In this document: one piece after another, positions 5,091-15,622 of the stretch
Layout of the letters: every line of letters starts with the position of its first letter
Position numbering within the stretch: position 1 is the stretch's first letter
DNA from: Candidatus Daviesbacteria bacterium RIFCSPHIGHO2_01_FULL_40_11
GTDB taxonomy: Bacteria; Patescibacteriota; Microgenomatia; Daviesbacterales; UBA10151
Direction of reading: 5' to 3'
DNA length: 32,212 bases
NCBI GenBank assembly: GCA_001776635.1
Contig: MFCP01000007.1
Location: 1-32,212, forward strand
Notes under the pieces: model-generated
What the model was told of the DNA's origin: nothing
The model's input: only the letters and a program-made list of their open reading frames with translations
The model's database searches: none
Program-made: the position numbers and the translations under genes

Positions 5091-6500
5091 ATGAACAAAT
5101 CAATTCCTCCGGAGAGTATTTTCAAGAGCTATGATATTAGAGGCATATACCCTTCTGAAATTAATGAACAATTCACCACGCCTATCACTCGTGCCATCTA
5201 TAAACTTATTTCCGATCAACTTTCTACCACTAAACCTCTCACAATAGCTGTTGGTCGGGACATGAGACTTTCCTCCCCGGCGATTTTTAAATCAGTCAGC
5301 AACACTTTAGTAGAGCTAGGAGCCAAGGTAATTGATTTAGGAATAGTTTCTACCCCTACTTTTTATTTTGCCGTTTTTAAACTAGGTTACGACGGCGGTA
5401 TCCAAATTACTGCTTCTCATAATCCCAAGCAGTACAATGGTTTGAAAATAGTCAGAAGATCTCCAACAGGACTTATTAAAATCGGCAAAAATACCGGCAT
5501 GAGTGAAATTAAACATGGGAGTAGGGAAGGAGTGGATATGATGCCCAGAGAAAAAGGCAGTATTATTAAAAAAGAGGCTGTACTAGAAGAAGAAGTCCAA
5601 AACGCCTTAAGGATTGTAGGATATCCTGAAATCAAAAAATTTAAACTGGTCGCTGATGCGGCTAATGCACTAGGCGGTCTTTATATTGATGCTTTATTTA
5701 AAGCAATTCCAGGTGAACTTATTAAGATGAATTTCGAACTGGATGGCAACTTTCCTGCTCACCAGGCCGATCCGCTGCAACCAGAAAATATAAAAGATTT
5801 ACAAAAAAGAGTTTTAGAGGAAAAGGCTGACTTGGGATTGGCGCCAGACGGCGACGGGGATCGGATGTTTTTCATTGACGAGAAAGGACAGATCGTAAAT
5901 CCGTCCCTTATTACTGCTTTAGTTGCCAAGGAACTGCTTTCTGAGAAAAAGGGTGAAGTAATACTTTTTGATATCCGATATATATTGACTCCTAAAAAGA
6001 TTGTTGAGGAATACCAGGGAAAATATGAGATTACCAAAGTTGGCCATGCTTTTATAACTGAGAAAATGGCAGAAACTGGCGGCATTTTTGCGGGGGAATC
6101 TTCCGCTCATTATTATTTTAGAGAAACTGGTAATGCGGAATCACAACTACCGGTAATTTTAATGGTTTTAAAAGTCATGACTAGGGAGGGTAAATCTCTT
6201 TCGGAAATTATAAACTCTTTAAAAAGAAGTCATGAATCCGGAGAAACTAATTTCAGGGTCAAAAATGCTTTGGAAATTATTGAGGCTTTAAAAGAAAAAT
6301 ATTCGGATGCAGAGATTAGTACGTTAGATGGTGTAGCTGTGTCTTACAAGGATTGGCGTTTTTCCCTTCGTACATCTAATACAGAGCCGCTGCTGCGACT
6401 TAATATTGAACACATTGGTAAAGAAGACCTAGAGGATAAGAAACAAGAGCTTTTGGCAGAAATAGAAAAGCATGCAGTTTTTGAGGACTTGCCAAAGTAG
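5091..6500 (+). CDS. Phosphomannomutase/phosphoglucomutase family protein
   Basis: FKSYDIRGIYPSEI, GRDMRLSSP, ITASHNPKQYNGLKI, PDGDGDRMFFIDEKG, RTSNTEPLLRLNIE. ATG 5091 preferred to the upstream start at 5067. Confidence 0.93.
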   Translation: MNKSIPPESIFKSYDIRGIYPSEINEQFTTPITRAIYKLISDQLSTTKPLTIAVGRDMRLSSPAIFKSVSNTLVELGAKVIDLGIVSTPTFYFAVFKLGYDGGIQITASHNPKQYNGLKIVRRSPTGLIKIGKNTGMSEIKHGSREGVDMMPREKGSIIKKEAVLEEEVQNALRIVGYPEIKKFKLVADAANALGGLYIDALFKAIPGELIKMNFELDGNFPAHQADPLQPENIKDLQKRVLEEKADLGLAPDGDGDRMFFIDEKGQIVNPSLITALVAKELLSEKKGEVILFDIRYILTPKKIVEEYQGKYEITKVGHAFITEKMAETGGIFAGESSAHYYFRETGNAESQLPVILMVLKVMTREGKSLSEIINSLKRSHESGETNFRVKNALEIIEALKEKYSDAEISTLDGVAVSYKDWRFSLRTSNTEPLLRLNIEHIGKEDLEDKKQELLAEIEKHAVFEDLPK

Positions 6501-6530
6501 GCAGTTTATGGTTTACTAATAATACATACA

Positions 6531-6650
6531 TCAAGAGATCGTGTACCCGAGTTTCACGAGTGGTACACGGCGGCAACCGTTTTAGTCACGGTGCCAATCC
6601 CGCATCATATGGTGCGGGAGATGCGGTCCAGATCTGGGATAAACTTACTG
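6531..6650 (+). ncRNA. Candidate SAM-I/SAM-IV clan riboswitch aptamer in the metK leader
   Basis: ATCAAGAGATC start; stem GTGTACC(6541-6547)/GGTACAC; GGCGGCAACCG...CGGTGCCAATCCC core resembling the SAM-clan GGCAACC/GGTGCCAA signature; CCCGCA-tcatatgg-TGCGGG hairpin; closing AGATC(6536-6540)/GATCT(6631-6635); located directly upstream of metK. Confidence 0.7.
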
Positions 6651-6652
6651 AG

Positions 6653-6677
6653 ACCTCTCCTGATGAGAGGTTTTTTT
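6653..6677 (+). terminator. Intrinsic terminator between riboswitch-like aptamer and metK start
   Basis: ACCTCTC-ctgat-GAGAGGT perfect 7 bp stem with T7 run (6671-6677), ending 9 nt before metK ATG. Confidence 0.85.
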
Positions 6678-6686
6678 GAAGGAATT

Positions 6687-7805
6687 ATGAGTCATCTTAA
6701 TGGTGCTATAACCACTTTTACATCTGAATCAGTCTGCGCGGGTCACCCAGATAAGATATGTGACCAGATATCAGATGCAATTTTAGATGCTGTTTTAGTA
6801 CAGGATCCAAAAGGACGTACTGCAATTGAATGCTTGGCGGGCAATAATAGATTAATTATTGCCGGAGAGATTGGAGCAAAAGCTAAAGTTGATTTTAAAA
6901 AAGTTGCCAGAAGTCAAATAAAAAGACTTGGTTATACTGATCCTAAATTCAATTTTTCAGATGAATCCCCTGTTGAAGTATTTGTTCACGAACAATCACC
7001 GGAAATTGCAATTGGGGTAAAACGAAAAGGAGCAGGAGACCAGGGTATGATGTTCGGTTTTGCTTGTAGAGAAACAGATAGCCTGATGCCTCTTCCAATT
7101 TCCATAGCACATGCTTTGGCTAAGAGAATGGATCAGGTTCGAGAGGAGAATATGGTTAAATATCTTCGTCCCGACGGTAAATCTCAGGTAACCATAGAAT
7201 ACAGACAAGGAAAACCATATAAGATTAATCAGGTTGTCATAGCTGTACCTCACAAGGAATCCATAAATTTGGATGAGGTTAAAGATGATATCTATAATAT
7301 TGTCATCATACCGGTGTTGGATATTTTCGGCTTCAAAATCCAAAAAAAGGATATTATTGTTAACGGAACAGGTATTTGGCATCACGGCGGTCCGGCATCC
7401 GATTGTGGAGTAACAGGTAGAAAAATCGTGGTGGATACTTATGGTGGGTATGCCAGGGTAGGTGGCGGTTGTTTTTCCGGCAAAGAACCTTCAAAAGTTG
7501 ACCGGGGCGGAGCTTATGCAGCCAGGTTTTTGGCCAAAAATATTGTGGCAGAAGGATTGGCTGATCGCGCAGAGGTGAGGCTCGCTTATTTTATCGGAGC
7601 TAAAAAACCCACCATGCAGGATGTAGAAACTTTTGGTACTGCCAAAAAATCTCACAAAGTAATCCTGTCTTTTATGGAGAAAATTTTGGATACATCTGTA
7701 GAGGGAATTATTGATGGTTTAGATTTACAAAGGCCGATATATCTTCCGACTGCCGCTTACGGGCACTTCGGCCGCGAGCAGTTCCCCTGGGAAAAGATTG
7801 TCTAA
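6687..7805 (+). CDS. metK: S-adenosylmethionine synthetase; ORF-track N-terminus (6591-6686) is translated leader RNA
   Basis: FTSESVCAGHPDKICDQISDAILDA, GAGDQGMMFGFACRET, GRKIVVDTYGG...GGGCFSGKEPSKVDRGGAYAAR; ATG 6687 follows GAAGGAATT. Confidence 0.97.
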   Translation: MSHLNGAITTFTSESVCAGHPDKICDQISDAILDAVLVQDPKGRTAIECLAGNNRLIIAGEIGAKAKVDFKKVARSQIKRLGYTDPKFNFSDESPVEVFVHEQSPEIAIGVKRKGAGDQGMMFGFACRETDSLMPLPISIAHALAKRMDQVREENMVKYLRPDGKSQVTIEYRQGKPYKINQVVIAVPHKESINLDEVKDDIYNIVIIPVLDIFGFKIQKKDIIVNGTGIWHHGGPASDCGVTGRKIVVDTYGGYARVGGGCFSGKEPSKVDRGGAYAARFLAKNIVAEGLADRAEVRLAYFIGAKKPTMQDVETFGTAKKSHKVILSFMEKILDTSVEGIIDGLDLQRPIYLPTAAYGHFGREQFPWEKIV

Positions 7806-9906: not shown

Positions 9907-9977
9907 CGGGGAATAGTATAGTAGCAACACGCCGCGCTGGGGGTGCGGAGTCAGGAGTGCAATCCTCCTTTCCCCGA
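9907..9977 (+). tRNA. tRNA-Pro (anticodon GGG at 9939-9941), CCA not encoded
   Basis: Acceptor CGGGGAA/TTCCCCG perfect 7 bp; anticodon arm CCGCG-CTGGGGG-TGCGG; T arm AGGAG-TGCAATC-CTCCT; C1-G72 and A73 match bacterial tRNA-Pro identity. Confidence 0.88.
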
Positions 9978-10013
9978 CTAACTATAGGTTTCATTTAACC
10001 ACAAATCTTCTTA

Positions 10014-14499: not shown

Positions 14500-14786
14500 C
14501 TTCTTTTAAAAAGAAATATTGGTCAAAGTTTGTTACAGAACACAGTTTCGCTTTAGATTTAGAAGAAGGGGTTTTTACATGGGATAATCCGAAAAAGATC
14601 GCAAAGTCACTCAAGAAATCGGCAGAGCAGAGTTTGCGAAGAAAAGGAACACCATTTCAATCTGCGATGAGTATGTTGAATTTTTATATCAATCGTGCTG
14701 GCAAAAATTTAACACCTGAAAGAAAAAATATTTTGGAACAAGCCAAAGTGGAACTTAGGAAACTTTTTGATCAACTCAAAGTATGA
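14496..14786 (+). CDS. DUF3175 family protein
   Basis: KKYWSKFVTEHSFALDLEEGVFTWDNPKKIAKSLKKSAEQS..PFQSAMSMLNFYINRAGKNL; 4 nt overlap with HU gene. Confidence 0.82.
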   Translation: MTSFKKKYWSKFVTEHSFALDLEEGVFTWDNPKKIAKSLKKSAEQSLRRKGTPFQSAMSMLNFYINRAGKNLTPERKNILEQAKVELRKLFDQLKV

Positions 14787-15622
14787 CTAGAGTTTTGAAT
14801 CCATTTCCTCAACAAATTATTACTTCGCTCACAAGTATTCTTCAAAAGAACCCTTACGTGCTAGGATTGATATTGGTTGGTTCGCAAGCCAGGACAAGTA
14901 TTTATATGGACAATGAGCATTCAGATATGGAAGCCTACATTATTGTTAAAGACGAAAAAGTTAAGATTTTTGAGAAGCAATTACCTGAAATAGTTAATAG
15001 ATTGGGGAAAGTAATTTTTTCTTATAAGAATAGGTGGGCAGGTTTTTCTACAGTATTTGATGATTTATTTAGACTAGAGCTCCCTATTGCCAAGCAGAGC
15101 GAATTGTCCTCTGTTTTTTCCAGACCCAAAACCCAAACAGTTAAAATTCTAATTGATAAAACTAAAGGTAGTTTGGAGCAGGTGCTTAAAAAACGTCCGC
15201 AAAGCATTGATTTTCAAAAATTTTTTCAGGAGATAGTATTAGACTTTTGGTATATGACAGTGGTTGCTGTCCAGTACTATCAAAAAAGGGAAATTTGGAA
15301 TTCCCGCAGCGCTCTGCAAGTGCTGCTTTCGTCACTTATTAAATTAATGGAGCTTTTACAAGATAAAAATATTTTATTACTTGAAACAAACAAACGAATG
15401 GAACAGTTTTTATCCAGTGAGCAGATTAGGTTATTACAAAAAATAACTCCGGTATATAATAAAAGACAGATAAAATATTCTTTAAAAAAGATTATAGAGA
15501 TCTTTCCTCAGGTTTGCGGAGAGATAACTAGAAAACATCATTATTCTTACAGAAAAGAAATTGAAGACGAAATCAAGCAAAAGATTAATAAGCTGATTAA
15601 AAAGGGTTTTTTGATAAATTAG
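14783..15622 (+). CDS. Nucleotidyltransferase-superfamily protein (aminoglycoside adenylyltransferase-like architecture)
   Basis: LGLILVGSQARTSIYMDNEHSDMEAYIIVKD matches the GSxxR...SDxE nucleotidyltransferase motif; helical C-terminal half; 4 nt overlap with the DUF3175 gene. Confidence 0.72.
   Translation: MTRVLNPFPQQIITSLTSILQKNPYVLGLILVGSQARTSIYMDNEHSDMEAYIIVKDEKVKIFEKQLPEIVNRLGKVIFSYKNRWAGFSTVFDDLFRLELPIAKQSELSSVFSRPKTQTVKILIDKTKGSLEQVLKKRPQSIDFQKFFQEIVLDFWYMTVVAVQYYQKREIWNSRSALQVLLSSLIKLMELLQDKNILLLETNKRMEQFLSSEQIRLLQKITPVYNKRQIKYSLKKIIEIFPQVCGEITRKHHYSYRKEIEDEIKQKINKLIKKGFLIN

Follow-up and report, generated by a model that had tools for sequence, protein, structure and literature searches.

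The metK leader in the window (the whole 32,212-nucleotide stretch of DNA analyzed) is very probably a SAM-I/IV-type riboswitch that, at high SAM levels, switches off metK. A SAM-clan aptamer occupies positions 6528 to 6646 of the forward strand, and behind it lies an intrinsic terminator whose end is 9 nt 5′ of the ATG at 6687. The aptamer family, its helices and the pseudoknot PK2 (through covariation), the pocket residues, the terminator, and two near-equal folds were identified computationally. Judged from its sequence, the leader is almost certainly a further copy, missed by the databases, of an already known riboswitch class, with predicted SAM binding and switching. The SAM-I/IV class was first described mainly from metagenomes.

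The metK locus and the anatomy of the aptamer

The metK gene (6687..7805, forward strand) encodes a 372-aa S-adenosylmethionine synthetase with the Pfam N, M, and C domains and PDB relatives to an E value of 1e-109; its closest named relative, at 78% identity, is MetK of Ca. Daviesbacteria (L001), which assigns the window, from an uncultivated ultrasmall bacterium, to the Microgenomatia within the CPR (Patescibacteria). The ORF caller had instead reported a 404-aa ORF from GTG 6591, whose N-terminal part the original prediction had dismissed as false. This ORF is indeed over-extended; the MetK proteins of relatives begin level with ATG 6687 or among the first residues encoded from there. Leader length varies freely among the relatives' metK genes. 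A candidate promoter would place the predicted transcription start at ∼6522 to 6527, immediately 5′ of P1, and TTG(C/T)CA...TGGTTTACT, resembling this candidate, is present in several same-genus leaders. The candidate is considered tentative because a consensus promoter scan found no site, that at 6489..6517 included. Elsewhere in the window, an ORF with a homing-endonuclease-associated HNH repeat (PF18780; 10050 to 10898) lies just upstream of recA and downstream of tRNA-Pro(GGG) (9907 to 9978), and another ORF (14783 to 15622) matches streptomycin adenylyltransferase (PF04439) above the Pfam cut-off.

Table 1. Sequence and structure features of the metK leader (positions in the window)
Feature	Positions	Strand	Details
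Possible promoter	6489..6517	+	TTGCCA, 17-nt spacer, TTTACT (weak -10); by eye, tentative
P1 5′ strand, CAUC	6529..6532	+	Pairs with 6620-6623; alternative partner, terminator loop (antiterminator)
J1/2, AAGAG	6533..6537	+	Part of SAM pocket (G6535, A6536); identical to SAM-I residues 11-12
P2, plain hairpin, 8 bp	6540..6569	+	CGUGUACC 6540-6547 / GGUACACG 6562-6569; fold and covariation
P3 and L3, GGCAACCG UUUUAGUCA CGGUGCC	6572..6595	+	Pocket residues 6574-6577, 6592-6594
PK2 5′ strand, AGU in L3	6584..6586	+	Pairs with 6643-6645
P4, 9 bp, AUAU loop	6598..6619	+	UCCCGCAUC 6598-6606 / GGUGCGGGA 6611-6619; fold and covariation
P1 3′ strand, GAUG	6620..6623	+	Fold and covariation
GGUC	6625..6628	+	Alternative partner of GACC 6652-6655; in predicted ON fold
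P5 hairpin, GUCC-AGAUCUG-GGAU	6626..6640	+	Directly after P1; 6626-6629/6637-6640; fold and covariation
PK2 3′ strand, ACU (AAACUU after P5)	6643..6645	+	PK2 swap test
Intrinsic terminator, AGACCUCUC-CUGAU-GAGAGGUUU with U7	6651..6677	+	In ON fold, 6529-6538 pairs with the 5′ arm and loop
Shine-Dalgarno-like AAGGA	6679..6683	+	Sequence

Direct reading of 6500 to 6700 recovered every sequence named in the original prediction at its position, including the core sequences GGCGGCAACCG (6569 to 6579) and CGGTGCCAATCCC (6589 to 6601), and the CCCGCA/TGCGGG stem noted there is P4 (Table 1). The prediction had thus located the core, but it started the element too late, given that the 5′ strand of P1 begins at 6529, and it left P1 unrecognized, as well as P5 and the PK2 strand (together 6626 to 6646). 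The leader RNA is more stable than its shuffled counterparts, with a folding z-score of −4.31 and 0/200 shuffles equally stable. P1 has only 4 bp in this copy, and P2 folds as a continuous helix in which no kink-turn, internal loop, or PK1 was found, in agreement with the absence of a kink-turn proposed originally. PK2 is weak here, with 3 contiguous bp (AGU/ACU) followed by a U6583-U6646 mismatch and a U6582-A6647 pair; an alternative 5-bp pairing 4 nt further on joins UUAGU (6582 to 6586) to ACUGA (6647 to 6651). P4 is absent in several relatives. In the SAM pocket, 14/14 of the contact bases checked are identical to those of SAM-I (residues within 5 Å of SAM, plus residue 88; all except residue 88 are listed in PMC6890682).

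SAM-I/IV is distinguished from SAM-I by a P2 without an internal loop (PMC2864571) and from SAM-IV by the lack of PK1 and the presence of P4 (PMC6890682), and it carries P5 and PK2 (PMC5393176). With SAM-I/IV (RF01725, SAM-I-IV-variant; structure 4L81), the metK leader shares the plain P2, the lack of PK1, the GGCAACC...GGUGCC core, P4 inside the core, P5 after P1, and, as a weak candidate in this copy, PK2 between L3 and the post-P5 strand, and relatives lie above the Rfam cut-off. It differs in that this copy is unreported by RF01725 and has a short PK2, that some relatives have no P4 or no recognizable PK2, and that the expression platform here is a terminator with a predicted 5′-strand antiterminator. 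The features in common with SAM-I (S box, RF00162) are the core, J1/2 AAGAG, all SAM contacts checked, P4, the association with metK, and the terminator, whereas the kink-turn, P2 internal loop, and PK1 are missing here, P5 and a candidate PK2 are added, and the score is well below the RF00162 cut-off. SAM-IV likewise has P5 after P1, and PK2, a candidate here, but it has P2a/P2b with PK1 and no P4 (PMC6890682), in contrast to the single P2 helix without PK1 and the P4 found here.

Covariance models and covariation among relatives

At gathering cut-offs, the Rfam models detected only RNase P and a tRNA in the whole window, with nothing near metK, and RF00162 (SAM) had no match in the window's own genome. 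At a permissive threshold, RF00162 aligned end to end with 6525 to 6627 at 24.3 bits, below the cut-off of 44.4 (whole-genome E value of 0.0018); the fit is poor at P2, where the internal loop and kink-turn of the model are missing. RF01725 (SAM-I/IV; curated cut-off of 41.1) had no match in the same genome up to an E value of 10, the metK leader included. Model R1, a covariance model derived from the metK leaders of 13 relatives with the window left out, scored 57.8 bits (E value of 6e-12) against the window, and the metK leader was the sole match there, with R1 carrying only two P2 pairs because P2 was badly aligned by MAFFT alone. A second R1 match in the genome (C16:13370; E value of 0.02) falls inside a long open reading frame and was rejected as chance. 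The RF01725 cut-off was exceeded by the relatives' metK leaders L003 (47.2 bits), L096 (44.5 bits), L127 (same genus; 42.9 bits), and L121 (42.5 bits), and RF01725 is often the best-scoring family for such leaders. Across 187 class genomes, 13 were above the cut-off for RF01725 and 28 matched at an E value of 0.05; for RF00162, 13 were above the cut-off in the same set.

Covariation was assessed in metK leaders gathered from the class Microgenomatia, excluding kink-turn leaders, in which P1 was parsed poorly. The consensus order of elements is AUC-AAGAG, a plain P2, GGCAACC...GGUGCC, an optional P4, the P1 3′ strand, P5, and AA plus a strand complementary to L3. Covariation of PK2 is supported by a test on 43 leaders, with 0/2000 swaps matching the leaders' own pairs, and the outcome is the same among the 13 leaders that belong neither to the family nor to the Shapirobacteria group. 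Restricted to the family, the figure is 88/2000, a weaker test because the strands scarcely vary. The arms of P1 (40 leaders) and those of P2, P4, and P5 also covary (0/2000 swaps each). The L3/post-P5 pairs themselves include AAAGU/ACUUU (many leaders in the family), AACU/AGUU (L099), AAAGACU/AGUCUUU (L108), AACACA/UGUGUU (L121), UAAUUU/AAAUUA (L109), AAACAG/CUGUUU (L205), and AUAGAU/AUCUAU (L236). P5 was called with short loops and hand-set ends after a first automated detection had chosen long false hairpins in some leaders; a few ends are still wrong (e.g., L127 and L135), which is expected to weaken rather than inflate the swap test. Two of the checks proposed with the original prediction did not refute it, with covariance matches to SAM clan models (sub-threshold for RF00162 here, above the RF01725 cut-off in relatives) and covariation of PK2, P1, P2, P4, and P5 in homologous leaders.

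The putative assignment to SAM-I/IV draws on anatomy and kinship, this copy alone being below the RF01725 score. It is conceivable, but rather unlikely, that the leader is instead a SAM-I riboswitch lacking the kink-turn and PK1, whose likeness to SAM-I/IV arose by convergence within Microgenomatia. This copy is reported by RF00162 and not by RF01725, canonical kink-turn SAM-I riboswitches occur at other genes in the same genus and, within the family, also at metK (L134, 49.3 bits; L143), and the leader types are interleaved on the metK tree (at least 8 changes for the S type), as such a history would have it. Against it, relatives' leaders, one from the same genus, pass RF01725, and PK2 after P5, a trait of SAM-I/IV and SAM-IV, covaries. 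As for the "divergent subclass" suggested originally, membership of the SAM clan and divergence from SAM-I are supported, and by anatomy the leader belongs to the known SAM-I/IV class (RF01725), already named as a candidate there.

Terminator, antiterminator, and predicted switching

As DNA, the terminator reads AGACCTCTC-CTGAT-GAGAGGTTT (6651 to 6673) with a T-run at 6671 to 6677, confirming the intrinsic terminator predicted 9 nt before the ATG. A simple terminator scan did not list it, probably a limit of the scan, since the stem extended into the T-run leaves only four T. RNAfold of 6522 to 6677, which ignores PK2, ligand, and co-transcriptional order, gave an antiterminator (ON) fold as the optimum (−59.4 kcal/mol) versus −58.9 kcal/mol for the terminator (OFF) fold, and slightly longer transcript ends favor the terminator form. 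The modeled ON and OFF folds are thus near equal, as expected of a switch, and the transcription-termination logic proposed upstream of metK is supported. The ON fold keeps P2, P3, and P4; in it, CAUCAAGAG (6529 to 6538), which comprises the P1 5′ strand and J1/2, pairs with 6656 to 6665, and GGUC pairs with GACC.

Of 24 terminator-bearing leaders, 13 have an ON fold in which the 5′ P1 strand extends into pairing with the terminator, and 11, including the close relative L124, do not. None of 200 shuffles of the terminator loop pairs as well with the 5′ P1 strand; swaps between leaders are borderline (95/2000 as good) because that strand scarcely varies. Joint departures of P1 strand and terminator loop from the usual sequence are seen in L106 (CAUAC/GUAUG) and L137 (UAUC/GAUA). 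The 5′-strand antiterminator of the predicted fold is, on these results, supported but not proven.

The ON structure was first written differently, with GGAGA (6617 to 6621) and GGTC (6625 to 6628) pairing with GACCTCTCC (6652 to 6660), all confirmed in position. We doubt this version, in which GGAGA and GGUC of the RNA would occupy GACCUCUCC. In its best duplex with the terminator arm, the 6617 to 6628 region reaches −19.9 kcal/mol, a strong pairing; its own terminator suits it better than those of other leaders (6/2000 swaps as good); and GAGAGG of P4 can pair with CCUCUC in some relatives. However, the structure melts P1 and the strong P4, and it was evaluated at −22.7 kcal/mol, with P2 and P3 only, versus −59.4 kcal/mol for the P4-keeping fold. 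GGUC/GACC is thus retained from the earlier antiterminator, whereas GGAGA/UCUCC would melt P4, and the 5′ P1 strand is the likelier partner of the terminator.

The metK leader is most likely a SAM-dependent OFF switch at the level of transcription, and we infer SAM binding, the direction of the response, and formation of the antiterminator in cells. When SAM is abundant, it would be bound in the pocket of P1, J1/2, and P3 and would keep P1 (CAUC/GAUG) closed, with P5 and the L3 pseudoknot assisting; this would leave the terminator's 5′ arm free, and transcription would halt before metK. When SAM is scarce, P1 would open, the released 5′ strand would pair with the terminator's 5′ arm and loop, and GGUC with GACC, so that the terminator would be blocked and metK transcribed. 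Recognition of a related but different ligand, such as SAH or another adenosyl compound, is very unlikely: this copy is divergent, and SAM aptamer variants with other ligands are known (PMC10853860), but all checked pocket residues are those of SAM-I and the gene is metK. Even less credible is the absence of any riboswitch, with the open frame from GTG 6591 coding for a MetK N-terminal extension or the terminator being an ordinary one of the upstream gene, given that leader lengths vary out of frame, the RNA covaries, and homology to MetK sets in near ATG 6687.

Leader types across Microgenomatia

SAM-clan riboswitches, SAM-I/IV included, are thereby placed at metK across a CPR class for which a literature search found no paper describing any native riboswitch, and Rfam thresholds miss many of these leaders. 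They also offer candidate SAM-responsive parts native to organisms for which genetic tools are scarce. A detectable metK is present in 76/187 of the sampled class genomes, and loss of MetK seems common even in near-complete genomes.

On the MetK tree, the leader types, labeled according to our own reading of each leader, are clustered yet interleaved, and therefore either the type has changed repeatedly at metK or the gene has moved between lineages. Canonical kink-turn SAM-I riboswitches are found at non-metK genes in the same genus (L180 in G007 and L184 in G005) and in the same family (L188 in G020). L180 and L184 precede small unknown ORFs, with L180 adjoining a gene for S-adenosylhomocysteine hydrolase on the opposite strand, and L188 precedes a cobalamin-independent methionine synthase-like (MetE-like) gene. 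The occurrence of SAM-I and SAM-I/IV within one genus, with type changes at one locus, provides natural material for class interconversion. One speculative scenario, which we hold to be possible but improbable, is that the SAM-I/IV riboswitches of Microgenomatia arose at metK, perhaps more than once, from kink-turn SAM-I riboswitches persisting elsewhere in the same genomes, and that part of them were further reduced (no P4, ∼60 nt, Shapirobacteria). If true, Microgenomatia would illustrate the conversion of one riboswitch class into another.

Leaders without a terminator have the start codon or Shine-Dalgarno sequence in or beside P5 or PK2 (e.g., L096, L132, and L236), an arrangement that suggests translational control in these leaders. 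In L096, L097, and L236, the start codon is either part of P5 (GUCAUUAUGAC) or shared in part with the PK2 strand (AUCUAUG), and the aptamer itself may thus control translation. L003 and L226, from the Shapirobacteria group, are very compact SAM-I/IV-like aptamers (∼60 nt, P1 to P1) that have a P2 of 4 to 5 bp, no P4, and no clear PK2; in both, an AAGG Shine-Dalgarno sequence is paired inside P5, and L003 is above the RF01725 cut-off (47.2 bits).
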